DNA from: a virus
Virus record (IMG/VR): IMGVR_UViG_3300036770_003738
Span: 20,593-84,592 of that record
Reading direction: 5' to 3' (one strand)
Length of the DNA stretch: 64,000 bases
The notes beneath the pieces were generated by a model that had not been told where the DNA came from, made no database searches, and worked only from the letters and a program-made list of their open reading frames with translations. Positions within the stretch are counted from its first letter, which is position 1. Each line of letters starts with the position of its first letter. Positions 19,495 through 56,124 of this stretch are shown here, piece by piece. The translations under genes were made by a program, and so were the position numbers.

Positions 19495-22400
19495 ATGGCA
19501 CGACAAAGAGTTTACAAATACGTTTTTACGCCTGGTACATCAGGAGTGGGTACGATACAGGTGCAAGGGCGCTATAATCTTGCTGATTTCCTAGCAATCT
19601 ATAACACAACGGACAACATCAGCATCTACAATTTTGGTGATCCAGCACAAGGCGGTACAGTGTCATGGAGTTCTAGCACTATTAGCGGCTTGCCCACATC
19701 ATATGATGGTGTTACTACACTCACACTAGATGCTGACACTAGCAGCATGTCTGCTAGCGACAAGTTGTCAATATTTGTTGAGGAACAAGCGTTGGAAGTG
19801 CAGCCCTGGGCCTTTGGAATGGATGCCATTGGTCGTAACCGAGTTAGCAATCCCGAAGCCTTAATTGACGCTGACTTCGAATATGGTTTGCAAAACACAA
19901 AATGGCAAAACGTCAGCGTCAACAACAATATTCCTGGTTTCTACGAAGACTTTGGCGCAGACCTGTTGGTCCAAACCAATGGATACATCAGTTTGCTAGC
20001 AGGCGACGACCTTATTACTAGCAATGTTGACACATCAGTTCGATTGAGTAATCCTGGCACACCTGCTTGGGTAGCTAACGACTATGCGCTATTAATAAGC
20101 CAGACACAAGGCAATACTACAGCGTTTACATCAACCTATACCACAGCCAATGTCAACAGCTCTGCTGAACGACTAGTAACAGTGTCGTCGACTAGCAGTT
20201 TTGCAGAAGACGACAATGTGTTGATTATTGGTCGCCCTACATCAGGTGGTACAACTATTTCAACCAGTATTACAAGTACAGCTACTACAACTGTTGTAGT
20301 AGCTAATGCTTCTGCAGCAGGCATTGTTGACGGCTGCTACATCATTGTGTTGACAGACACTGCTGGTGTGTACGAAGTCATGGCGGTCACAAACGTTAGT
20401 ACCAACACACTCACAGTGGTACGACAGTCCAATCGAACCAACGCTGGTGGCGCAAACATTACTACCGGCAATGCAGTTTATGTTGTGGCCAGTCTAGAAG
20501 TTTCTCAAATTGACGAAGTCACAGACGGAACCACACTGCAACTGCAACGTGGCTGGTACAACATTCCTGCACTCAACAGTTTTGCTTCAGGATCTATTGT
20601 TCAAAAGTTGTCCAGCAACGTTGAACTAGTTGAACACACAGCAGTTAGTACCGCTGTGAACGGTGCCCAAACAATCAGCCGTGGTGCTTACAGTACCACA
20701 GCACTGAGCGCAGCAGGTGTAGGATCACCTATGATCCGCATGACCGGTGCGTTCAATGCCACTGGCAATGCCAACATTCCTGAAGTTGCAGTCAACGCTC
20801 CAGATCACGGTTTAACCGCTGGTAATTATGTGAGTGCGTTGAACATGAGCAACAGCAACGCTGAAGGTGTGGATATTGTGGCATCGGCCAACACCAACAA
20901 CTTTGGTTACTATCCTCGCAGAACAACTGGCCTAGCAGTTGGTTATCCGCTGAACCAAACTGATACTGCCCTACGTCAAGCTTTCCCCTACACTGGTGCT
21001 GACCTAGACGTGGTCAGCATTGTGAGCGATGCTGGGACTCCTAGTACCATCACAGTGACTACAACATATGCTCACGGTCTAGTACCTGGAACTCCAATCT
21101 TGGTCAACTTGACTGCTGGTACTAACACTGCCTACGGCGAAGGCAGCTTTATTGTGATCAGCGTACCAAGCACAACCACATTTACATACACTGCCAAATC
21201 TGGTGCCGCAGTAAGTGGCAGCTTGGAAGGTATCATCAACGTTCGCAGCAACGCAACATTCTTGCCAAGACCATTTGATGGTGGTGTTATCTTAGGCCCT
21301 GGTACACCCACTCATGGCGCTAGCGCAATTCGTCAGACCAAGAAGTACTTCCGTTATCAATCTGGTAAGGGCATTTTGTTTACATCTGGTACCATGCTCA
21401 AACCAACATTTGATATTTCAGTGTTGAGCGCTGACGGGACCGCAGTTAACAGCATCATTACAGTCACCACAGATATTGAGCACGGACTAAACATTGGTGC
21501 AATCATTGCAATCCAGGGTGTTGACACTACTGGTTATACCAACACTGGATATGTGGTCACATCCATTGTGAGCGATGTTAGTTTCACAGTACAAGCACAA
21601 GCTGAACTAGGCAGTACCAATCCTGATCTGGCTCCTCAACCACGAGTCAATGTCACAGGTTGGCACGGTGCTAGTATCCGTGCTGGTATTTTTGATGATC
21701 AAAACGGCATGTTCTGGGAGTGCGATGGACAGAGTGTCAACGCAGTTCAGCGTTCAAGCACATTCCAGGTTGCTGGTTTGGTCAGTGTTGGAGTAGGATC
21801 CAACTTGGTCACTGGTGACGGTGTTTGTCGATTCCAAGAGCAGTTAAACAACGGCGACGTTGTGGTTATTCGTGGTATGACACATACTGTGACTAGTATC
21901 CTTGACGAAGCACGTATGACAGTAGTACCTACATTCCGTGGTGTTACTAACCAAAATCGTGTGAAAATGTGCTTGCGCCAAGAGATTCGTGTACGTCAAG
22001 CAGATTTCAACATTGATCCACTGGATGGAACAGGTCCGAGCGGTTACACACTGGATGCTAACAAAATGCAGATGTTAGGTGTTGAATACTCTTGGTACGG
22101 CGCAGGTTATGTACAGTGGATGATTCGTGGACAAAACGGCAACTTTGTTATGGCACATCGTCGTCCTAACAACAACGCCAACAACGAAGCTTACATGCGT
22201 TCGGGTAACTTGCCTGCCCGCTATGAAGCAGTAAACGAAACACCTATTAGCGAGCTTAACGGCGCAATTGATGCTAGCCAAACAACAATTACTTTATTGG
22301 ATGCAACCTACTATCCAGCAGCCAGCGTCACATACCCAGTGTATGTGATGATTGACAGTGAAATCATCAAGTACTCCGGTAAGAGTGGCAACGATCTTAC

Positions 22401-27815: not shown

Positions 27816-28715
27816 ATGCATGAGATTACAAACAAAGTTGATTTTTATATTACTAATGTTTGTAATCTCACCTGCGAAGGGTGCAACAGGTTCAACAATC
27901 ACGATTTTCGAGGATGGCAACGCTGGAGTGATTATCGAGCACAGTACGAACAATGGGGTGAGTTGGTTCGATTAAAATCTGCAACTATCATGGGAGGCGA
28001 GCCTTTTTTGAATCCGACATTAGTGGATTGGATACAAGGAATCAATCGTATATTCGGCATTGACGTTCAAGTTCTCACTAACGGTACTAGGTTCAGACAG
28101 TCACAGCACTTGTACGATGCAATGTTGTATCGTTCAACACGCACAAGAGCAATGAACCACATTGGAGTAAGTCTTCATAATCTTGCAGATCAAGAAGAAA
28201 TACTTGATAGTATTCGATCATTCTTTCCTGGCTCATTTAATGAGTACCCTAAAGGACATCTAGCAAACCGTTGGGGGTCAGACTGGTATTTTGTTGACAA
28301 TAACGGAGTAATGGTCAATGTGTATGTTGTTAACAAATTTGTTAATTCGTCGGTGATCCCACAATGGCAAGTCAACGGCGGAATTAAAAAACAATACACA
28401 CTACATAATAGCGATCCAGTAGAGGCGCACCAGGCTTGCGCTTTTGCAAAATTTAAATCATATCATTTCATTCGTGGAAAATTGTACAAATGCGGTCCAG
28501 TAGCTCTCTTGCCCGAGTTTGATCAACAACATCAGCTTACAATAACTGATGCTGATAGAAATTTAATGAGTTCATATCAACCATTGTCAACTGACAACTT
28601 TGATCATTACCACAAAGAATTTTTTGATCACATAGATAAGCCTATTTCACAATGTAAATTTTGCCCTACTGAGCCTAAATTCAGAATAATTGCACCGATT
28701 CGCAAAGGGCTGTAA
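27816..28715 (+). CDS. Radical SAM protein
   Basis: The 299-aa protein has the radical SAM cluster-binding motif C-x3-C-x2-C at Cys16, Cys20 and Cys23 (CNLTCEGC), followed by MGGEPFLNP (SAM-binding GGE motif near residue 61) and VQVLTNGT. Later cysteines (CAFAKF, YKCGP and QCKFCP) may bind an auxiliary cluster of SPASM or twitch type. Such enzymes use a [4Fe-4S] cluster and SAM to make a 5'-deoxyadenosyl radical for modifying peptides, sugars or nucleic acids; the substrate is unknown. Its stop overlaps the next start (TAATG), so it is coupled with a glycosyltransferase-like gene. Confidence 0.88.
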   Translation: MHEITNKVDFYITNVCNLTCEGCNRFNNHDFRGWQRWSDYRAQYEQWGELVRLKSATIMGGEPFLNPTLVDWIQGINRIFGIDVQVLTNGTRFRQSQHLYDAMLYRSTRTRAMNHIGVSLHNLADQEEILDSIRSFFPGSFNEYPKGHLANRWGSDWYFVDNNGVMVNVYVVNKFVNSSVIPQWQVNGGIKKQYTLHNSDPVEAHQACAFAKFKSYHFIRGKLYKCGPVALLPEFDQQHQLTITDADRNLMSSYQPLSTDNFDHYHKEFFDHIDKPISQCKFCPTEPKFRIIAPIRKGL

Positions 28716-41561: not shown

Positions 41562-41729
41562 ATGACATACAAGCCGTACAATGAAAATCTAACAACACCT
41601 ACTCAGCAGAACCCACACAGTCCTGCTACCGGTGGGTTCAAGCAACAACCAGTTGAGATTCCTGGCGTACTACATCAGACACGTCAGTTGTTTCAACCAG
41701 TGGTTGCTCAGCCCAAGGATAACAAATAA
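41562..41729 (+). CDS. Small Pro/Gln-rich protein (55 aa)
   Basis: A 55-aa frame starts at ATG 41562, with AAAGG 7 bases before it. It encodes MTYKPYNENLTTPTQQ and is rich in Pro and Gln (EIPGVLHQTRQLFQPVVAQP). It begins 2 bases after the previous stop and ends with a TAATG overlap into the next gene, which supports it being real. I do not recognise a function. Confidence 0.55.
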   Translation: MTYKPYNENLTTPTQQNPHSPATGGFKQQPVEIPGVLHQTRQLFQPVVAQPKDNK

Positions 41730-42021: not shown

Positions 42022-42393
42022 ATGAGATCAAGAGAGTTTGTATCAGAGCAAAAAGTTGGCGACATTGGCAAACGCAAAAGTGTAGCCACAGTGGGTCTCA
42101 ACAAGTTTAGAGATCAACAGTTTGCTGACCGTGTGTACGAACTCAATCGTGTGATGATGGCAGTAGCCACAACTGACGGAACTAATCCAGCAACTATTGA
42201 CAGCGAGTCATGGGCAGGACGCAACAATATTGCTGCTCCGTATACCAAAGTTGAACAAGACATGCTGAAAAAAGCTTTTCAGGCAGTAGGTAGTCACCAT
42301 GTGGATATCAACAACGGTGACCTTGACTCAGAAGAACTACCGAGCACTAATACACAAAGTCCTGTAAAAGCATTCAAAGGTTATCCAAGATGA
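42022..42393 (+). CDS. Conserved phage protein (123 aa)
   Basis: The 123-aa protein starts MRSREFVSEQKVGDIGKRKS and includes NKFRDQQFADRVYELNRVMMAVA, then ESWAGRNNIAAPYTKVEQDMLKKAFQAVG. The type recurs in aquatic T4-like phages next to virion genes. The REF(V/L)-E-start is shared with short structural proteins in these phages. It overlaps the nuclease gene by ATGA. The function is unknown. Confidence 0.6.
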   Translation: MRSREFVSEQKVGDIGKRKSVATVGLNKFRDQQFADRVYELNRVMMAVATTDGTNPATIDSESWAGRNNIAAPYTKVEQDMLKKAFQAVGSHHVDINNGDLDSEELPSTNTQSPVKAFKGYPR

Positions 42394-42827
42394 AAAAACT
42401 TCTAGCACTGTTGTTGCTGGCACCTGTCCTAGTCCTAGCACAACCTAAACAAAAACCTGGCGTGACTTATGACGCTGTGATCACACGAGTAATTGATGGT
42501 GACACAGTAGGTATCCAAGCCGCGTGGTTGCCGGCACCTCTCAAACCAGAACTCAGCATTCGTGTATTTGGTGTAGATACTCCTGAAAAAGGACACCGTG
42601 CACAGTGCGCCAGCGAAGATCAGCGCGGACAAGCAGCCACAGCGTTTACTAAACAAGCCGTTGCCAGCAGCCAAAAGCGACAGATCGTGCTCATGTCCTG
42701 GGACAAGTATGGCGGCCGAGTATTGGGAGACGTGATTCTAGACGGCAAGAGCCTGCGCCAAGGACTGATTGCCAACGGGTTTGCTCGTGAATATTACGGC
42801 GAAGCCAAAACATCTTGGTGCCAATAA
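42390..42827 (+). CDS. Secreted thermonuclease-like nuclease (SNase family)
   Basis: The 145-aa protein begins with a likely signal peptide (residues 1-18, Lys-Lys then a Leu-rich core ending LAQ). The mature part is a micrococcal-nuclease domain: VIDGDT at 35-40, RVFGVDTPE with Arg58, Asp63 and Glu66, and DKYGGRVLGDV with Arg110, matching the catalytic Arg-Glu-Arg set and calcium-binding Asp. It would cut DNA or RNA outside the cytoplasm, or in the periplasm. Export from an infected cell is unusual for such a phage. It overlaps the previous gene by ATGA. Confidence 0.88.
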   Translation: MKKLLALLLLAPVLVLAQPKQKPGVTYDAVITRVIDGDTVGIQAAWLPAPLKPELSIRVFGVDTPEKGHRAQCASEDQRGQAATAFTKQAVASSQKRQIVLMSWDKYGGRVLGDVILDGKSLRQGLIANGFAREYYGEAKTSWCQ

Positions 42828-42845: not shown

Positions 42846-43988
42846 ATGAGCAATTTTTATTGTGCGGCCCCTTGGCGCGGTCTGCATATCAATCCCCAAG
42901 GAAGTATTAAGACTTGCTGTGCTGGCAATCCGCACATGCTTGGAAACCTCAACGACCTTGATATCGAACAAGCACTTAACAGCGAAAAAGCACAAGAAAT
43001 ACGTGCAAGCTTGTCTCAAGGTAAACCGCACGAGTATTGTAGTAATTGTGTTAAGGCTGAGAGGTTTGGCGCCGAAAGCGAACGTCACTGGCACAACAGA
43101 GTAAATCCTGACTTTGACCGTGCTTCAGCTGGCTCCGATTATCATTATCCTGTAATTGTGGATGTGCGATGGAACACCACATGCAATCTCAGTTGTAATT
43201 ACTGTGACCCAGCCAACAGCTCAAAATGGGCAAGTCTAAGACATATACCTTTTAAAAGTCAGAGCCGCCCATATTATGAACAAGTGTGTGACTTCCTAGA
43301 GCAACATAACAATCACATACACGAAGTTGCACTAGTTGGTGGCGAACCATTGTTGTTACCTGAAAATGAACGACTGCTAGATGTTATACCTAATGATTGT
43401 ATTGTGACCTTGATCACTAATATGAGTCAAGATTTAGAAAGCAATCGAATATTTAAGAAGCTAGCACAGCGCAAACGAGTAGGGTGGAGCATGAGCTTTG
43501 ACAACACAGGCGCACATTATGAATATGTACGTCATGGTGGCAAATGGGACCTGTTGTTGAACAACTTGCAACAGATCAAATCATTGTTTCATACACAGGG
43601 CCACTGGGGCGGCATCCATGCTGTGTACAATCTTTACAATGCAACTAAGCTGGTTGAATTCAAACAGTTTGCACAAGAACAAGGGCTATCAATAACATGG
43701 ATGAACTTGTTTGGACCCGAAGCATTGGATCCTTTTTTACACGGGCCTGACGTAGCACAGTTAGCAGCGCAACAAATAGAGATACTACAAAATCAACATG
43801 CATTTGCGCCTTCGGAGCAAGCTTTTTTTGCACAAGCACTTGAAAAATATCGCAGAGGAGACTTGCCAAAAAATCAGATTAAAAATAAATTTTGTAACTT
43901 TACTCTTGAAATTGAAAATCGATTTCATCCAGACACTAAAGGACAATTTGATCAACTTTGGCCGGAGCTAGCACATTTATGCAAATAA
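42846..43988 (+). CDS. Radical SAM protein with N-terminal cysteine (twitch/SPASM-like) region
   Basis: The 380-aa protein starts with an N-terminal cysteine domain (CAAPWRGLHINPQG, Cys6, Cys24-Cys25, then CSNC near residue 65-68), like a SPASM/twitch domain placed before the radical SAM core. The core motif CNLSCNYC has Cys113, Cys117 and Cys120, followed by VGGEPLLLP near residue 165 and WSMSFDNTG. It would use SAM and iron-sulfur clusters to modify a substrate I cannot name. It heads an overlapping cassette: its end overlaps the 2OG-oxygenase-like gene by 10 bases. It is related to the protein at 44506. Confidence 0.88.
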   Translation: MSNFYCAAPWRGLHINPQGSIKTCCAGNPHMLGNLNDLDIEQALNSEKAQEIRASLSQGKPHEYCSNCVKAERFGAESERHWHNRVNPDFDRASAGSDYHYPVIVDVRWNTTCNLSCNYCDPANSSKWASLRHIPFKSQSRPYYEQVCDFLEQHNNHIHEVALVGGEPLLLPENERLLDVIPNDCIVTLITNMSQDLESNRIFKKLAQRKRVGWSMSFDNTGAHYEYVRHGGKWDLLLNNLQQIKSLFHTQGHWGGIHAVYNLYNATKLVEFKQFAQEQGLSITWMNLFGPEALDPFLHGPDVAQLAAQQIEILQNQHAFAPSEQAFFAQALEKYRRGDLPKNQIKNKFCNFTLEIENRFHPDTKGQFDQLWPELAHLCK

Positions 43989-44524
43989 CTCCTGTCGACA
44001 ATGAACTTAATTTATTTCGTGTAGAAAATGTATTTTCTAACGAACTTGTGCAACAGGTTAAAGACACTGATTGGTTAAACTTGCCTTGGAGCAGACAACC
44101 CTATCAAGAGAATTGGAATCGTCGCCGTGTTACTGAATCCTCTATCCCGTGGATCGATCAGTGGAATTTTCAGCTCAGCACAAACTGGTCAAGACTTGAA
44201 GAACAATTAAACATAGAGATACAACCCTATTGCGGTACTGCATTTTGGATCGACGAGCCCGGGTTTGTGTGTACCATGCACACAGATGGAGAATTACCAG
44301 GTAGTTTACATTTGACTTGGCAAGGCTCAGGGACTAGTTTTTACTGGCACAATGATCCAAGTACATTGCGTTATCAGGTACCTTCGCAACCTAATGCAGG
44401 TTACATTATGATTAATTGCGAGGATTCTTCAGGATATAGAAAATTGCTATGGCACGCCATGCTAGACCCAGTGCCAGTAAATACATTTAGATTAACGTCA
44501 TACATATGGATAATACCAAAATAA
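43979..44524 (+). CDS. 2-oxoglutarate/Fe(II) oxygenase-like protein
   Basis: The 181-aa protein shows the iron-binding and co-substrate pattern of this family: His101-x-Asp103 (CTMHTDGELPG), a distal His159 (LLWHAML) and Arg171 (NTFRLTSY) twelve residues later. The core strand order (SLHLTWQGSGTSFYWH, then AGYIMIN) fits a double-stranded beta-helix. The substrate is unknown. I place the start at the ATG 43979, not the TTG 21 bases upstream. It lies between two radical SAM genes and overlaps both (10 and 19 bases), which argues for a joint pathway. Confidence 0.65.
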   Translation: MQITPVDNELNLFRVENVFSNELVQQVKDTDWLNLPWSRQPYQENWNRRRVTESSIPWIDQWNFQLSTNWSRLEEQLNIEIQPYCGTAFWIDEPGFVCTMHTDGELPGSLHLTWQGSGTSFYWHNDPSTLRYQVPSQPNAGYIMINCEDSSGYRKLLWHAMLDPVPVNTFRLTSYIWIIPK

Positions 44525-45666
44525 CCGATAGTCCTACATTTTGTGCTGCTCCGTGGACTAGCCTTAACATAGATCAAACAGGTCGCGTTAGTCCTTGTAT
44601 GCATGCATACCACGAAATAGGCAATATTAAACAGAATACTATCCAAGAGATAATAGCAGGACCTAAACTAGCATCTATTAAAGAAGCTATGAAACAAGGC
44701 ACCTGGCATGATACTTGTAGGCTATGTAAACAGAGCGAAGATACAACAGGAGTAAGTGCAAGGACTCAACGCTATTGCGATTCGCACACCCGTGATGTTA
44801 TTGACAATGATATTTCTTGGTTTGACCCCCAGCACTTTGTTGTTAATTGGAGTAACTTGTGTAATCTTAGTTGTGTATACTGTAATCCTAGCACTTCAAC
44901 CGCCTGGCAAAGCATTAAAAAGATACCTATCAATCATGTGCGTAATGATCAGAACAGCATACTAGAATTAATGCAGGACCAAGGAAAAAGTGTACAAGGA
45001 TTAGTTTTAGGAGGCGGAGAGCCGTTGTTACAAAAAGGGTTATTGGATATGTTAAAATGTCTTGACCCGCAAAAAGCTCAAGTAATGGTTACTACCAATC
45101 TCACCATAGATCTTGCTAGTAACCCTATTTACAACGAACTCAAAACTTGGCCCAATGTAGATTGGCAAGTAAGCTTTGACAATTGCACCAAGGATAAATT
45201 CGAATATGTTCGGAATGGTGCTAGTTGGGATCAATTCAAGTCTAACATTGATTTAATGAAAGCAGACGGGCAACGTGTACATGCACATCCAGCATACAGC
45301 ATCTACTGTGCATTTGATCTAGTTGAGTACTACGAATTTTGTGAAGCAAATGACTTGAACTTGTTTTGGTGCGAGCTTACTAATCCCTGGGATCTTGATG
45401 TAAGACGACTAAGCTCAGAAATTCGACAAACAGCAATAAATGAAATAGATAAAGTAACACAGCGGTGGGGGCAAATTAACGAACATAATTTAGCAGTCAG
45501 CACACTGCAAAGATATCGTGCCCAACTGATAGATAACAGTTACATATTCAACGTTAACGAATATGTGCCTGATCCGTTGTCTTGGCATCGTAATATAGAA
45601 CAAGAATTAAACAAAACTCAGCGATTTGAAGATTTGTGGCCGGGCCTGGCCAGGAGATTGAAATGA
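44506..45666 (+). CDS. Radical SAM protein with N-terminal cysteine (twitch/SPASM-like) region
   Basis: This 386-aa protein has the same layout as the one at 42846: an N-terminal CAAPWTSLNIDQTGRVSPC segment (Cys13, Cys31, then CRLC near residues 71-74), and a core CNLSCVYC with Cys119, Cys123 and Cys126, then LGGGEPLLQKG and WQVSFDNCT. The two proteins are paralogues. Two such enzymes in one cassette may act one after another, or on different positions of one substrate. It overlaps the previous gene by 19 bases and the SGNH-like gene by ATGA. Confidence 0.88.
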   Translation: MDNTKITDSPTFCAAPWTSLNIDQTGRVSPCMHAYHEIGNIKQNTIQEIIAGPKLASIKEAMKQGTWHDTCRLCKQSEDTTGVSARTQRYCDSHTRDVIDNDISWFDPQHFVVNWSNLCNLSCVYCNPSTSTAWQSIKKIPINHVRNDQNSILELMQDQGKSVQGLVLGGGEPLLQKGLLDMLKCLDPQKAQVMVTTNLTIDLASNPIYNELKTWPNVDWQVSFDNCTKDKFEYVRNGASWDQFKSNIDLMKADGQRVHAHPAYSIYCAFDLVEYYEFCEANDLNLFWCELTNPWDLDVRRLSSEIRQTAINEIDKVTQRWGQINEHNLAVSTLQRYRAQLIDNSYIFNVNEYVPDPLSWHRNIEQELNKTQRFEDLWPGLARRLK

Positions 45667-46421
45667 AAGCACCTTGGCATTTTGGAACATATCATGCTAA
45701 TACTGTACAGGAATGGTTACCTACAGATACTAAAGAAAACTTTGATCAGTTGATGCAAGACCCTGGTCATCGTGCATACTTTGCACGTCTTGGATGGGAC
45801 CAACCAGGTGCAATAACTTACAATATCAACAGCGAAGGATTTCGCTGTGATGAATTTGATTATGAAACACCATGCATGATTGCCTTGGGTTGTAGTTTTA
45901 CTCTAGGAACAGGATTACCATTGGATTCTATATGGCCTACCTTGGTAGGACAAGCTGCAGGACTAAAAGTGGCCAATCTCGCCTGGGGAGGCAACAGTTC
46001 GGATACCTGCTTCAGATTGGCAGAATACTGGATACCTCGTCTCAAGCCCCGGCTAGTCACAATGTTAGCGCCTCCAAGTAGTCGCACAGAGATATTGTTG
46101 GATAACAATCAGTATCATTTGCCAGCAGAAGTAATCATGCCTGAAACCAATTCTGCAATATTCAACAAGGGCGACACATTCTTAAAGCACTGGCAATTAA
46201 ACGACGAGAACAGCAGATTAAACCAGTTGAAAAATTGCTTGGCTATAAAGCAACTGTGCGCTGAACACAATATACCTTGCGTGATAGAATTAGTGCAGGA
46301 CCACATGCAACACAGTCGTGAAGAAATAGGCTATGCACGTGACCACATGCACGGTGGTCCTATCATACATAAACGAATTGCGGAGAAAATGCTAAATGAT
46401 TGGCGCAAAAAATACACTTGA
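45663..46421 (+). CDS. SGNH/GDSL-type hydrolase-like protein
   Basis: This 252-aa protein has GCSFTLGTGLP with the nucleophile Ser78, WGGNSSDT near residues 108-115 and a DHMHGG...IH end (Asp and His near 230-240), the SGNH block pattern. Such enzymes usually remove acyl groups from sugars or lipids. An N-terminal region of ~70 residues (WHFGTYHANTVQEWLPTDTKEN) is extra. The start is set at ATG 45663 (ATGA overlap), not an upstream CTG. It closes the radical SAM cassette and runs 26 bases into the large terminase gene. Confidence 0.72.
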   Translation: MKAPWHFGTYHANTVQEWLPTDTKENFDQLMQDPGHRAYFARLGWDQPGAITYNINSEGFRCDEFDYETPCMIALGCSFTLGTGLPLDSIWPTLVGQAAGLKVANLAWGGNSSDTCFRLAEYWIPRLKPRLVTMLAPPSSRTEILLDNNQYHLPAEVIMPETNSAIFNKGDTFLKHWQLNDENSRLNQLKNCLAIKQLCAEHNIPCVIELVQDHMQHSREEIGYARDHMHGGPIIHKRIAEKMLNDWRKKYT

Positions 46422-47982
46422 TACAGTACTTGTAAAAGCACCGCATCGCAAAGAAACTTACTCAGAGAAAGAAATTGAAGAGTTCGCTAAGTGCGCAGAC
46501 CCAGTAAATGGGCCCATGTACTTTATGGACCACTTCTTTTATATACAGCACCCCACACGCGGCAAAATGCTGTACCATCCGTTTGAGTATCAAAAGAGGC
46601 TGATCGAAAACTATCACAACAATCGTTTCTCAATTAGCCTGATGCCTCGACAAACAGGTAAGTCAACATCGGCTGCTGGTTATTTGTTGTGGTTTGCTAT
46701 GTTTGTGCCGGATGCTACTATTCTTGTTGCTGCTCACAAATACTTGGGTGCGCAGGAAATCATGCAGCGTATTCGTTACGCATACGAACTGTGCCCAAAC
46801 CATATTCGAGCAGGCGCTACTAGCTACAACAAAGGAAGTCTGGAGTTCGATAATGGATCGCGTATCGTCAGTCAAACCACTACTGAAAACACTGGTCGTG
46901 GTATGTCTATTACACTCCTGTACCTAGACGAGTTTGCGTTCGTTAGACCTACTATTGCCAGCGAGTTCTGGACTTCTATTACACCTACACTGAGTACTGG
47001 TGGTAAAGCCATTATCACATCAACTCCAAACTCAGACGAAGATCAGTTTGCGTTGATCTGGAAAGGTGCTAATAAAGTTGAGGACGAGTACGGTAATCCT
47101 AGGCCCAACGGTGTTGGTATTAATGGATTTAAAGCATATCGTGCATTCTGGAAAGAGCATCCTGATCGCGATGAAAAATGGGCAGATGAACAACGAGCAC
47201 AACTAGGTGAAGAACGATTCCGTCGAGAAATGGATTGTGAATTTGTTCAGGACGAAGAAACCCTCATCAGTCCACTAAAGCTAGTAGAGATGACCGCAAC
47301 AGATCCAATCTACAAAACAGGTCAAGTTCGGTGGTTTAAGAGGCCTGAGAAAAATAAAATTTATGTAGTTGCATTAGATCCTAGCTTGGGCACAGGTGGC
47401 GATGCTGCGGCTATACAAGTATTTGAAGCAAACTCTGCTACTCAAGTAGCAGAGTGGCGCCACAACAAAACTATTGTACCAGAACAAATCCGAATAATGA
47501 CTGATATATGCCGTCATATCAATGAGACAGTGCAAGACACAAAAAGTATCTATTATTCAGTAGAAAACAACACGTTAGGCGAAGCAGCCCTGCTTTCTAT
47601 CGAGCACTACGGAGAAGAAAACATACAAGGTTATTTTTTAAGCGATAAGTCAGTAGTTAGTTCAAGTGGTCGCAGATACCGAAAAGGTTTTACAACTACC
47701 AATAAAAGTAAGTTGTCGGCTTGTAGCAAATTCAAAACCCTAGTAGAAACCAACAAAATGGCGATCAGTAGCTCGTCCCTACTTAGCGAACTAAAGACAT
47801 TTGTTGCCAACGGATCCAGTTATGCAGCAAAACCTGGTGAGACTGATGATCTAGTAATGGCAACTCTGTTAGTGGTTAGGATGCTACAACTGTTGCAAAC
47901 GTACCACAGTGAGCTTGATACACAAATGAAAGATTTTGCAGATGAAATGGACACTCCTTTGCCTTTTATTGTAATGTTCTAA
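46396..47982 (+). CDS. gp17: Large terminase subunit (T4 gp17-like)
   Basis: This is the ATPase and nuclease that packages DNA into the prohead. The 528-aa protein has Walker A PRQTGKST at residues 84-91, Walker B YLDEF at 176-180, a coupling motif (TSTPNSDEDQF), and the nuclease residues ALDPSLGTGGD (Asp near residue 331), SVENNTLG and GETDDLVMA (Asp near residue 480). T4 gp17 is 610 aa; the shorter length is usual for aquatic relatives. The gene overlaps the preceding SGNH-like gene by 26 bases, so an essential gene is coupled in translation to a cargo cassette. Confidence 0.95.
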   Translation: MIGAKNTLDTVLVKAPHRKETYSEKEIEEFAKCADPVNGPMYFMDHFFYIQHPTRGKMLYHPFEYQKRLIENYHNNRFSISLMPRQTGKSTSAAGYLLWFAMFVPDATILVAAHKYLGAQEIMQRIRYAYELCPNHIRAGATSYNKGSLEFDNGSRIVSQTTTENTGRGMSITLLYLDEFAFVRPTIASEFWTSITPTLSTGGKAIITSTPNSDEDQFALIWKGANKVEDEYGNPRPNGVGINGFKAYRAFWKEHPDRDEKWADEQRAQLGEERFRREMDCEFVQDEETLISPLKLVEMTATDPIYKTGQVRWFKRPEKNKIYVVALDPSLGTGGDAAAIQVFEANSATQVAEWRHNKTIVPEQIRIMTDICRHINETVQDTKSIYYSVENNTLGEAALLSIEHYGEENIQGYFLSDKSVVSSSGRRYRKGFTTTNKSKLSACSKFKTLVETNKMAISSSSLLSELKTFVANGSSYAAKPGETDDLVMATLLVVRMLQLLQTYHSELDTQMKDFADEMDTPLPFIVMF

Positions 47983-50878: not shown

Positions 50879-51799
50879 GTGAAATACTGTATTGATTACA
50901 GAAACGGTGGCATGGGCAATACAATACTTGCTCATGCCTTGTTTGCTTGCAATCAAGTTGATTTAGATTTAAACAATTTTTTTAGTAGCACTGGTAACTC
51001 ACATGCTATAGATAAAATTAACAAATCTAATTTGATTGCGCATCACTTGATTGAATTTCCTGACAGTTCTTTGACATGCGTGGCGCAAGTGGTTTGCCAA
51101 GATTGGTGGGAAGTACTACGTCTCAAGTTGTCTTACGCAAAATGGTTCGGAACTGTGCCAATGTTAATTAACATAGATAAGTTTTTTACTTATTCTGCGG
51201 ACGTTAAAAAAGAACAAGAACAGTTATGGCATCAGTTTTACAACGTTTATAAAGACGTATCGTGGCCTATGTGCAATAGCATTGATGATATTGTAAATCT
51301 TCCAATTAAAATTCAACAAGAGATCAATCAAGTATTTGTCAAAGCAGATATATCTATTCCACGAACTGAAAAACAGTTCGTGGAATGGTTAGCAACTACA
51401 TACTACGATATGTTTTGCAAACTTGACAAAACTGTTCCTCACTCTAAGGTAATTTTGCTAGGTGATTACATTCAGGGAAATTTGACTGGTCTAATAGATC
51501 TCTGCGAATCCGTAATGGATTGGGTGTGGGATCACTCTCGTAGTCAGCAGTTTCGTAACAAGATGTTATCAGTAAATCAGAAATACTTTGATTGGCTAGA
51601 TCAGATCAAAACAGCAACAGTCTCTCGCGTGGTAAACAATTTAGAGACATGGGAACAGTCGTTGGTACTTGCCAAGTGGTGTGTTGATCATAATCAACAC
51701 CCAAGAAATTTAAATTGGGGTAGTATTGATTGCAATACAGATACAAACAATTTATACTTAAACACATTATTAAGGAAACATTATGGGAAAACCATTTGA
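50879..51799 (+). CDS. Unknown protein with GGMGN N-terminus, GTG start
   Basis: This is a 306-aa protein of no recognised family, inserted between gp32 and uvsX. The N-terminus is MKYCIDYRNGGMGNTILAHA, which recalls the GG-(L/M)-GN motif near the start of some nucleotide-sugar-binding transferases (GT11 fucosyltransferases), but the rest shows no such family pattern. The rest is helical with many aromatics (CQDWWEVLRLKLSYAKWFG). It starts with GTG 3 bases after the gp32 stop and overlaps uvsX by 17 bases. A strong hairpin lies within the coding sequence at 51356-51386. Its AT-richer composition compared with gp32 and uvsX hints at later acquisition. Confidence 0.6.
   Translation: MKYCIDYRNGGMGNTILAHALFACNQVDLDLNNFFSSTGNSHAIDKINKSNLIAHHLIEFPDSSLTCVAQVVCQDWWEVLRLKLSYAKWFGTVPMLINIDKFFTYSADVKKEQEQLWHQFYNVYKDVSWPMCNSIDDIVNLPIKIQQEINQVFVKADISIPRTEKQFVEWLATTYYDMFCKLDKTVPHSKVILLGDYIQGNLTGLIDLCESVMDWVWDHSRSQQFRNKMLSVNQKYFDWLDQIKTATVSRVVNNLETWEQSLVLAKWCVDHNQHPRNLNWGSIDCNTDTNNLYLNTLLRKHYGKTI
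51356..51386. other. Perfect 13-base intragenic hairpin
   Basis: ATTCCACGAACTG (51356-51368), a loop of five A, and CAGTTCGTGGAAT (51374-51386) form a perfect stem inside the coding sequence of the gene at 50879. No T-run follows. Confidence 0.85.
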
Positions 51800-53098: not shown

Positions 53099-53551
53099 AT
53101 GTGGTACAATCGAATAGTTGCAGACTTGTCTCTAATCCCAGACTTTATTTTGCACTACGAGGCAGAACTGGTCTCGGCTAAAAAAGACTGCGCTATCGGC
53201 GGCCTGGTAGAACGAAATCTCAAAGAACTACCAGGCACTACAGAACATCGTTTTTATCAGCTTCAAGAAATTGAAGCTGTACTAAACTACCTAAACATTC
53301 AACTTCGCAAGATTCGTCGCAAACACTTTCAAAAGTATCTCGAAGGTTATGCTAGAGCATTAACCAGCAGAGATGCTGAAAAGTATGTGGACGGCGAAGA
53401 CGAAGTAATTGATTATGAAACCATTATCAACGAAGTTGCATTATTGCGAAATCGTTGGTTAGGTATCATGAAAGGTCTTGAAACCAAACAATGGCAGCTG
53501 GGGCATATCACTAGATTGCGTACTGCTGGCATGGAAGATATTACTGTTTAA
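53099..53551 (+). CDS. uvsY: Recombination mediator (T4 UvsY-like)
   Basis: UvsY loads UvsX on gp32-coated DNA. The 150-aa product (T4 UvsY 137 aa) has YARALTSRDAEKYVDGE, then VIDYETIINEVALLRNRWLGIMKGLETKQWQLGHITRLRTAGMED, matching the helical C-terminal half of the family seen in aquatic T4-like phages, plus a basic stretch (LRKIRRKHFQKYLEG). The start codon immediately follows the preceding stop. The order gp32, uvsX, uvsY supports the call. Confidence 0.82.
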   Translation: MWYNRIVADLSLIPDFILHYEAELVSAKKDCAIGGLVERNLKELPGTTEHRFYQLQEIEAVLNYLNIQLRKIRRKHFQKYLEGYARALTSRDAEKYVDGEDEVIDYETIINEVALLRNRWLGIMKGLETKQWQLGHITRLRTAGMEDITV

Positions 53552-53558
53552 GGAAAAG

Positions 53559-54659
53559 ATGAGTTATTTGTTTACTAGTGAAAGCGTGAGCGAAGGCCAC
53601 CCAGACAAAGTGGCTGATGCCATCAGCGATGCTGTGCTAGATTTAGTAATGGCACAGCAAAACTCTGCACTGCGTTGTGCATGTGAAACGCTGGTTACTA
53701 CCAATAGAGTAGTTGTTGCTGGTGAGTACAAAGGCACATTAAGCGATCAGGAAGTCGAACAAACCGTTCGTGAAGTTGTGCGAGATGTGGGCTACGAACA
53801 ATCGGGATTTGATTGGCGCACACTAGAAGTTACCAATTTACTACACGGGCAAAGTGCTGACATTGCCTTGGGCACAGACTCATTTGGCGCAGGCGACCAA
53901 GGTCTAATGTTTGGTTATGCATGCAATGAAACTGATAGCTACATGCCCAGCGCCATTTACTGGAGTCACTGTATTGTAGAAGGCCTGGCGCAAGCCCGTA
54001 AACATGGTGTAATTTCCTGGCTCGGCCCTGATGCCAAGAGCCAAGTTACATTTGAGTACGACGAACTCAATCGTCCAGTGCGCATTGCCAAGGTTGTTTG
54101 CAGTACACAGCACAGAGAATCAGTAGATATTACAACAGTTCGAGTTACGGTTGAAGCAATGATTCGCAACATCCTACCCGGAAAGTATGTGGACAATGCT
54201 ACGGAATTTTATATTAATCCTACTGGTCGTTTTGTTATTGGTGGTCCAGATGGTGATACTGGTCTTACTGGCCGGAAGATTATCGTGGACACCTACGGCG
54301 GTTATAGCCCGCACGGTGGCGGCGCTTTTAGTGGAAAAGACCCCACCAAAGTAGACCGATCAGCAGCTTACATGATGCGTTACATTGCTAAAAACATTGT
54401 GGCCAAAGGACACGCACCTTGGGCAACTTGCCAGATTAGTTATGCTATTGGTATGAAGGATCCTATGAGTTTTTATATTGAAACTCAAGATGCAGCATTG
54501 AGTCGCAGACTTACCGCGCAGGTCCAAGATTTAGTTGATTTAACACCACAGGGTATTATCAAACGATTTGATCTGTTCCGACCTATCTATAGTCAGACTA
54601 CCAACTATGGACACTTTGGCAAGGCCGATCTTCCTTGGGAAAAGATTGACCTGTTCTGA
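53559..54659 (+). CDS. metK: S-adenosylmethionine synthetase
   Basis: This enzyme makes SAM from methionine and ATP. The 366-aa protein (E. coli MetK 384 aa) is clearly complete: SEGHPDK with the catalytic His14 and Asp16-Lys17, GAGDQGLMFGYA, PDAKSQVTFEYD, GPDGDTGLTGRKIIVDTYGG and HGGGAFSGKDPTKVDRSAAY, ending in GHFGKADLPWEK. The C-terminal helix is slightly shortened. It is placed 7 bases after uvsY, with AGGAAAAG before the ATG; an upstream in-frame start inside uvsY was rejected. It fits the many SAM-using enzymes elsewhere in the window. No disabling change is seen. Confidence 0.96.
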   Translation: MSYLFTSESVSEGHPDKVADAISDAVLDLVMAQQNSALRCACETLVTTNRVVVAGEYKGTLSDQEVEQTVREVVRDVGYEQSGFDWRTLEVTNLLHGQSADIALGTDSFGAGDQGLMFGYACNETDSYMPSAIYWSHCIVEGLAQARKHGVISWLGPDAKSQVTFEYDELNRPVRIAKVVCSTQHRESVDITTVRVTVEAMIRNILPGKYVDNATEFYINPTGRFVIGGPDGDTGLTGRKIIVDTYGGYSPHGGGAFSGKDPTKVDRSAAYMMRYIAKNIVAKGHAPWATCQISYAIGMKDPMSFYIETQDAALSRRLTAQVQDLVDLTPQGIIKRFDLFRPIYSQTTNYGHFGKADLPWEKIDLF

Positions 54660-54679: not shown

Positions 54680-55444
54680 ATGAAAATTGTTATCGTTACT
54701 GGCGGATTTGATCCAGTTCACAGCGGTCACCTGGCTTACTTTCAAGCAGCAAAGAAGTTAGGCGACAAACTAATAGTAGGACTCAATTCAGATGCATGGC
54801 TTGCCCGTAAAAAAGGCAAGCCTTTTATGCCTATGAGTGAACGTTTTGCATTGATTAGTGCATTGCGTATTGTAGATGAAGTAATCACCTACAACGACGA
54901 CGATGGTTCTAGTAGAGATGCTATAAGAAAAATCAGACTCAAGTATCCCAACGCTGAAATTATCTTTGCCAACGGCGGAGACCGTACAAAAGAAAACATT
55001 CCCGAAATGGATGTAGCCGACTCTGGCACTACATTTGTATTTGGAGTAGGCGGAGAAGACAAAAAGAATTCTAGTAGCTGGATTCTAGAAGACTGGAAAA
55101 AACCCAAGACTGAACGTACCTGGGGTTATTATCGTGTGCTACACGAAGTTGGCACAGAAACCAAACTCAAAGAACTTACAGTAGCTCCTAAGACTTGTTT
55201 GAGCATGCAACGACACGATCAACGAGCAGAGTTTTGGTTCGTAGCTGAGGGCACAGCCACAGTGTACACACTAGATGAATCGTCAACTGATCAAGAAGTT
55301 AAATGCCATCTTTCGGCGCATGAGCACACATTTATCACTTGTAAAGAATGGCATCAGTTGTGCAACGAAACAGACCAACCTCTTCGACTGATTGAGATTC
55401 AGTATGGTGCTAACTGTGTAGAAGAGGATATCGAACGCCGATGA
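54680..55444 (+). CDS. Cytidylyltransferase-cupin fusion
   Basis: The 254-aa protein has two domains. Residues 1-~130 are a nucleotidyltransferase of the glycerol-3-phosphate or RfaE type (TGGFDPVHSGHLAYF with HxGH at 14-17; FMPMSERFALISALRIVDEVI), which joins a nucleotide to a sugar or polyol phosphate. Residues ~145-254 are a cupin like phosphomannose isomerase C-terminal domains (TWGYYRVL, SMQRHDQRAEFWFVAEGTATVY, LIEIQYG). It would make an activated sugar for the transferases that follow. The stop overlaps the next start by ATGA. Confidence 0.82.
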   Translation: MKIVIVTGGFDPVHSGHLAYFQAAKKLGDKLIVGLNSDAWLARKKGKPFMPMSERFALISALRIVDEVITYNDDDGSSRDAIRKIRLKYPNAEIIFANGGDRTKENIPEMDVADSGTTFVFGVGGEDKKNSSSWILEDWKKPKTERTWGYYRVLHEVGTETKLKELTVAPKTCLSMQRHDQRAEFWFVAEGTATVYTLDESSTDQEVKCHLSAHEHTFITCKEWHQLCNETDQPLRLIEIQYGANCVEEDIERR

Positions 55445-56124
55445 AAGCTATTCCGGTTTATATTGGCTACGATCCTCGAGAAGCCATTGCATACCATACT
55501 TGTGCTAACAGTATTATTCGCAACAGCAGTAGACCTGTAGCAATTGTGCCTATTGCTTTGAATCTATTTAAAGAATACAACGAAACACACACCGACGGTA
55601 GCAATCATTTTATCTATACTCGATTCTTGGTTCCTTATCTCAACGACTTTACTGGACATGCTATCTTTATTGATGGTGATATGATTGTTCGTGGTGATAT
55701 TGCTGAACTATGGGACTTGCGTGATGTCAGCAAAGACGTACAAGTAGTCAAGCACGACTATCAAACACGTATGGCTGAAAAGTATCTAGGAGCAAAAAAT
55801 GAAAACTATCCTAGGAAAAATTGGTCTAGTGTGATCTTATGGAACTGTAACAGTTTCCCTAATAGACGTTTGATGCCTGACTTTGTACAACGATCAACTG
55901 GCGCCGAGTTGCACAGATTTACCTGGCTTGAAGATGAACGTATCGGCGAACTGCCGAGAGAATGGAACTGGTTGCCCGATGAATACGGGCCAAATACCGA
56001 CGCTAAGTTACTGCACTACACACTTGGTACGCCATGCTTTCAAGAGTTTGCTGATACTCCACAAGGCAACGAGTGGCATCGCGAGCGCATACTGACAGAA
56101 TACTGTCAACAAAGGAACATATGA
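55441..56124 (+). CDS. Glycosyltransferase (GT8-like)
   Basis: The 227-aa protein begins IPVYIGYDPREAIAYHTCANSI and has a DxD metal-binding motif at Asp78-Gly-Asp80 (AIFIDGDMIVRGDIAELWDL), then SVILWNCN and a C-terminal LLHYTLGTPCF (His of the HxxGxxK-like site). These features fit a retaining GT8-type nucleotide-sugar transferase. It is encoded within an overlapping run (ATGA at both ends) after the cytidylyltransferase-cupin. The sugar donor is not known. Confidence 0.78.
   Translation: MKAIPVYIGYDPREAIAYHTCANSIIRNSSRPVAIVPIALNLFKEYNETHTDGSNHFIYTRFLVPYLNDFTGHAIFIDGDMIVRGDIAELWDLRDVSKDVQVVKHDYQTRMAEKYLGAKNENYPRKNWSSVILWNCNSFPNRRLMPDFVQRSTGAELHRFTWLEDERIGELPREWNWLPDEYGPNTDAKLLHYTLGTPCFQEFADTPQGNEWHRERILTEYCQQRNI

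Follow-up and report, generated by a model that had tools for sequence, protein, structure and literature searches.

A conserved, modular radical SAM enzyme cassette in a fixed place before the terminase gene of large aquatic phages

The cassette and its conservation

What do two radical S-adenosylmethionine (SAM) enzymes, a 2-oxoglutarate (2OG) oxygenase-like protein and an SGNH protein do side by side, directly upstream of the large terminase gene of a virus, and do they act together? The question is raised by a stretch of 64,000 nt (the window, to which coordinates refer unless another locus is named) that spans positions 20,593 to 84,592 of IMG/VR record IMGVR_UViG_3300036770_003738. It carries four intact genes without internal stops, here called RSa, OX, RSb and SGNH and together the cassette, followed by terL:

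42846..43988, + strand: RSa, N-twitch radical SAM protein, 380 aa; matches to NF033640, SPASM and Radical_SAM; the constant cassette member
43979..44524, + strand: OX, 2OG-Fe(II)-oxygenase-like protein, 181 aa; ATG at 43979; HxD...H...R and predicted fold
44506..45666, + strand: RSb, second N-twitch radical SAM protein, 386 aa; matches to NF033640 and SPASM
45663..46421, + strand: SGNH, putative SGNH-fold hydrolase or acyltransferase, 252 aa; ATG at 45663; weak PF13472 match and kept motifs
46396..47982, + strand: terL, large terminase subunit, right border of the slot; Terminase_6N 62.6 bits, phrog_36964 407 bits

Searches started separately from RSa, OX, SGNH and TerL all arrive at the same locus type, and the association of the genes is far above chance. 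A preliminary description of this DNA, whose coordinates and overlaps proved correct to the single base (10, 19 and 4 bases between successive cassette genes and 26 between SGNH and terL, the first ATG of which is at 46396), had argued for one pathway mainly from these tight overlaps. As the main argument this is not supported: similar overlaps are found elsewhere in the same operon (38242/38245, 42390/42393 and 51783/51799), and because they are ordinary there, overlap alone is weak evidence for one pathway. The strong evidence for association is co-occurrence across relatives.

RSa is present in every one of 80 distinct intervals from RSa to terL (the loci returned by pattern searches, at most 80 per search, rather than an unbiased census), and OX, RSb and SGNH are variable. 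RSa-OX-RSb-SGNH occurs in 23 intervals, RSa-OX-SGNH in 15 and in one more with RSa and OX fused in frame, RSa alone in 15, RSa-SGNH in 11, RSa-OX in 10, RSa-RSb-SGNH in four, and RSa-SGNH-OX in one, the single exception to a nearly constant order. The expectation that the four-gene set would be kept in relatives is therefore borne out in part: the genes stay together, but the full quartet is limited to those 23 loci, and RSa is the sole constant. An independent search for OX placed it no more than 1.5 kb from RSa at 118 of 119 places (a redundant set, collected with an alignment query, single-sequence patterns having returned only two loci); the sole OX homologue without a nearby RSa among the matches listed (locus L218, 10001-10552) belongs to a 65-kb record with one N-twitch gene elsewhere. 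SGNH accompanies RSb in 27 of 27 loci and is found in 28 of the 53 without RSb (Fisher 5e-6, kinship ignored). The in-frame fusion of RSa and OX occurs in two assemblies (L009 and L012), apparently of one virus. That the genes work together is thus upheld by OX tracking RSa, RSb tracking SGNH, and the fusion.

The accessory genes have been gained or lost repeatedly: counting supported branches of the RSa tree only, at least 10 changes are forced for OX and at least 11 each for RSb and SGNH. Median dN/dS (the ratio of nonsynonymous to synonymous substitution rates) is 0.055 for RSa, 0.076 for RSb, 0.087 for SGNH and 0.163 for OX (four pairs), against 0.049 for TerL, so that RSa is about as constrained as the terminase and purifying selection is strong on all four genes. 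Alternatively, unrelated cargo genes may merely have gathered in an insertion-tolerant slot; the gene sets are indeed very variable, and both the terL slot and a second interval, between p333 and a RecA-like gene, accept varied cargo. However, the conserved order, the RSb-SGNH dependence, the near-absolute linkage of OX to RSa, the fusion and the purifying selection on all four genes make this explanation highly improbable.

Identity of the encoded proteins

RSa and RSb match the twitch radical SAM family NF033640 over nearly the full model (211 and 196.7 bits; curated cut-off 170), and both carry an N-terminal SPASM domain above the Pfam cut-off (42 bits in RSa, 46.6 bits in RSb); RSa also scores 32.9 bits with Radical_SAM. 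The CxxxCxxC core of RSa is C113/C117/C120, and its N-terminal cysteines C6, C24, C25, C65 and C68 are kept. In RSb, C13, C31, C71, C74 and C119-x3-C123-x2-C126 are invariant in 23 sequences, exactly four kept N-terminal cysteines being predicted to suffice for one auxiliary cluster. Both proteins have the core and N-terminal cysteines required by NF033640, and Fe-S clusters are predicted for them. The mean column identity of RSa is 79% over 43 homologues. RSa and RSb are 28% identical over 397 columns, with a profile-profile probability of 100%, and are on this comparison paralogues. In a tree of sampled phage N-twitch proteins, some rows of which are long-branched, they form two well-supported sister clades, and within NF033640, which itself has no assigned reaction, these distinct clades are tied to the terL slot.

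In OX, H101-T-D103, H159 and R171 are invariant in 36 homologues. Its AlphaFold2 (AF2) model (predicted local distance difference test, pLDDT, 93.8) is a prolyl-hydroxylase-like double-stranded beta-helix, for which the best solved Foldseek matches are the P. putida prolyl hydroxylase and PHD2 (E about 1e-5). OX shares this fold and the HxD...H...R set with prolyl 4-hydroxylase (P4H)-like 2OG oxygenases (P. putida P4H, PHD2 and PolD; template modelling (TM) score about 0.6-0.7); it differs in that no sequence-profile match was obtained and identity is 9-14%. No family in Pfam, NCBIfam or PHROG matches OX. The model also matches many annotated viral 2OG oxygenases, the best viral match being an unnamed protein (TM 0.94). 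From the facial triad, the arginine and the fold, OX is predicted to be 2OG-Fe(II)-oxygenase-like in activity. A pattern scan of 84,980 bacterial and archaeal genomes, limited by the patterns used, returned relatives of neither OX nor RSa.

The fourth product appears from its motifs to be a divergent SGNH protein: Ser78 and D227-x-x-H230 (blocks I and V) are invariant in 35 homologues, although Pfam Lipase_GDSL_2 (PF13472) scores 18.4 bits, under its cut-off of 32.9. Profile matches to GDSL esterases of the PDB are weak, and in the alignment, judged by eye, there is no clear GxND Asn of block III. Given the sub-cut-off score and no evident block III Asn, it may be either a hydrolase or an acyltransferase. 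The preliminary description had recognised a radical SAM pair with an N-terminal cysteine domain, an SGNH protein, and between them a protein with the His-x-Asp...His...Arg set, for which it made the beta-helix fold a test; all of these assignments, and the fold, stand.

The slot before terL

Among isolates, TerL is closest (54% identity) to that of Pseudomonas phages of the PA5oct/Paride type. The order in PA5oct, namely sheath, tube, tube, structural, head closure, hypothetical, structural, structural and terL, matches the window minus the insert. Among IMG/VR relatives fished by TerL, RSa is present at about 77% TerL identity or more and absent at about 73% or less, and where it is absent the upstream small genes and the SNase gene are often still there. 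One locus without RSa (L150) has before terL a B12-type radical SAM protein, another radical SAM protein, an HTDGG-motif protein, a methyltransferase, an SGNH homologue and a sulfotransferase-like protein (the last named by eye). In PA5oct-related large aquatic phages, the interval from the structural genes to terL is read as a slot of fixed position that accepts cargo. By tblastn, no homologues of RSa, OX or SGNH were found in isolate phages, and RSb reaches only KVP40-type proteins, about 23% identical. Scans for sigma-70 promoters and terminators gave matches near chance and were uninformative. On the left the cassette is flanked by:

42390..42827, + strand: SNase-like nuclease, usual left neighbour of RSa, outside the cassette; PF00565 45.6 bits
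41562..42393, + strand: three small conserved proteins (55, 96 and 123 aa), from alignments; the 96-aa one weakly similar to virion-protein family phrog_486 (E 0.0028)

In one locus (L094 3747-5423; the same in L073) SNase and RSa lie in one continuous frame, a possible fusion. A third radical SAM gene of the window (27816-28715, 299 aa) lacks the N-terminal SPASM domain and has a homologue in the terL slot of L150. The second cargo hotspot, between p333 and the RecA-like gene (50879-51799), here holds a 306-aa protein without known family; in L083 the same interval is occupied by a pair of N-twitch-type radical SAM genes together with genes for a short dehydrogenase-like protein and, by eye, a sulfotransferase-like one. 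MetK (S-adenosylmethionine synthetase; 53478-54659, with all three domains) is encoded 7 kb downstream of the cassette; it was rejected as a standing cassette partner, being present in one of 11 related records. Sugar-nucleotide genes follow at 54680-56124: a cytidylyltransferase fused to a mannose-6-phosphate-isomerase-type cupin, then a GT8 glycosyltransferase.

Substrate and proposed function

There is, in our estimate, about an even chance that the locus is an exchangeable tailoring-enzyme cassette, centred on RSa and held in a fixed slot, that acts most likely on a glycan. A sugar substrate is favoured because of the gene neighbourhoods of N-twitch paralogues. Eight of 11 related or comparison records scanned (the eight being 139-364 kb) carry 8-13 N-twitch matches each, and in most of the eight about five of these stand in tandem. 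Of such islands, three read fully contain SGNH and, variously, carbamoyltransferase, AMP-binding and glycosyltransferase-like genes, and lie close to fibre-like genes (the glycosyltransferase-like and fibre-like ones named by eye). Around the N-twitch gene of the record with OX only (L218) are genes of cupin-like, nucleotidyltransferase/kinase and HAD-like type; in KVP40, a glycosyltransferase-type gene (PF00534) is located two genes upstream of the N-twitch-like one; and in L101 an SGNH relative is found among dehydrogenase- and glycosyltransferase-like genes (by eye). The terL slot of L150, with its B12-type radical SAM, radical SAM, methyltransferase and SGNH genes, is counted on the same side. 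The three islands (L267 8496-17069, L268 6294-15920 and L269 5353-15496) each show five N-twitch paralogues interleaved with ~350-aa proteins lacking a known family.

In the mechanism that we propose, RSa, with one radical-SAM [4Fe-4S] cluster and one N-terminal auxiliary cluster, would carry out the first radical step on a substrate that all infections by RSa-carrying phages provide, for instance by oxidising it, epimerising it or forming a bond. OX would oxidise the product with Fe(II) and 2-oxoglutarate, RSb would supply a second radical step, and SGNH would add or remove an acyl group. The substrate would most likely be a sugar or glycan of the particle or the host surface, and as a second choice a virion protein side chain. 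With RSa kept and the later steps swapped between phages, chemically different end products would result, perhaps altering recognition by hosts, rival phages or defences. A bolder form, which we hold only tentatively, is a combinatorial radical-SAM pathway that decorates the phage's own particles or the host envelope with a repeatedly re-tailored group. This would parallel, on the phage side, the diversification of O-antigens, with RSa making the core modification and the other enzymes exchanged as variants.

Several points weigh against a glycan-tailoring cassette. The case for a glycan draws on genes that surround paralogues instead of on the cassette's own surroundings, and several of those genes were named by eye only. 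Peptide maturases are the best-known carriers of SPASM domains, and this, the likeness of OX to prolyl hydroxylases and the slot inside a structural operon all fit a protein substrate. The RSa structure model matches solved structures weakly (best anSMEcpe, TM 0.37), too weakly for the fold search to name a substrate class. Finally, no T4 late promoter TATAAATA occurs in the window, which leaves the presumed late expression unsupported.

What speaks for a protein substrate is the SPASM domain, the likeness of OX to prolyl hydroxylases in fold and the place within the virion operon. Under such a scheme of virion-protein maturation, RSa, OX and RSb would modify side chains of a conserved structural protein, much as the maturases of ribosomally synthesised and post-translationally modified peptides (RiPPs) treat their peptides, and SGNH would trim or transfer an acyl group during assembly. 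The SPASM-type auxiliary-cluster domain in both radical SAM proteins and a fold nearest to the prolyl hydroxylases of EF-Tu and HIF agree with this, as does the slot among virion genes, some of whose PA5oct counterparts encode proteins detected by mass spectrometry; moreover, where relatives have genes inserted between RSa and the 123-aa gene, some of these encode long proteins that look virion-like (by eye). However, none of the flanking genes follows RSa in its distribution, since those for the 55-, 96- and 123-aa proteins and for the adjacent structural proteins occur also without it; no unannotated small open reading frame (ORF) lies beside the cassette; and SGNH, together with the carbamoyltransferase and methyltransferase partners of paralogous cassettes, would be unusual in such a role. 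We therefore consider virion-protein maturation somewhat unlikely.

A dedicated precursor peptide was sought in the cassette surroundings within the 84.6-kb record, which is probably a fragment because the largest related records are of 300-364 kb. No free small ORF abuts the cassette, and those in its vicinity were rejected as candidates. The 55-aa protein at 41562, put forward in the preliminary description as the nearest candidate, was rejected since its IPGV core is kept also in relatives without RSa; the 96- and 123-aa proteins were excluded as dedicated precursors on the same ground. A conserved 65-70 aa protein immediately upstream of SGNH and terL (L138 8013-8225, L150 9116-9313) occurs only in RSa-lacking relatives and was likewise discarded. 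The earlier observation that no obvious precursor lies near the cassette was thus accurate, and because there is no adjoining small ORF and the nearby small proteins occur without RSa, the classic RiPP arrangement is unsupported in the examined sequence.

It is improbable that the cassette serves a small-molecule pathway, with an auxiliary metabolic role in which a free metabolite, a nucleotide or a cofactor is made or altered. Small molecules are common substrates of radical SAM and 2OG enzymes, the models of MoaA, QueE and viperin also match RSa and RSb (though far below the cut-offs), and the MetK gene is 7 kb away; but MetK was found in only one of 11 related records, no DNA-modification or nucleotide-biosynthesis partner was seen tracking the cassette, and a fixed virion-operon place with terminase-level constraint would be unusual for an optional metabolic gene.

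Relation to known systems and significance

With RiPP radical SAM/SPASM maturases (anSME, SuiB), RSa and RSb have in common a radical SAM core and an auxiliary-cluster domain; unlike in those enzymes, the domain is N-terminal, no precursor was found, and structural similarity is low (TM about 0.37). Aminoglycoside-type tailoring sets (BtrN, HygX, TobZ-like) combine a twitch radical SAM enzyme, a 2OG oxygenase and a carbamoyltransferase on sugars. In profile comparison RSb weakly matches BtrN (E 0.0076), and OX resembles HygX in fold; the likeness is marginal in sequence and may be taken as analogy, not membership.

Among phages, 12 radical-SAM genes have been reported in one T4-like genome (PMC5332604), and cassettes of such genes in the glycosyltransferase-rich region of pelagimyophage host-recognition clusters (PMC7029224), neither with an assigned function. 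Like these, the present locus belongs to large T4-type phages with variable radical-SAM cassettes. It differs from the pelagimyophage cassettes, which are found in a hypervariable region, in that its position before terL is fixed, one core enzyme is always present and gene order hardly varies. The statement of the preliminary description that no such phage system had been described accordingly needs qualification: phage radical-SAM cassettes are on record, and a description of this terL-proximal gene set was not found in the literature searched (open-licence papers only). The cassette is real, strongly conserved and modular, and it is its fixed-slot form that was not found described.

Radical-SAM genes of phages are often reported, with no function assigned in the literature found. 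This locus is a tractable entry, as one enzyme is under terminase-level constraint in a fixed place and with few partners, and natural variants without each partner would let the reactions be ordered. If the substrate does sit on the virion, these phages would build chemically tailored particles through radical chemistry.

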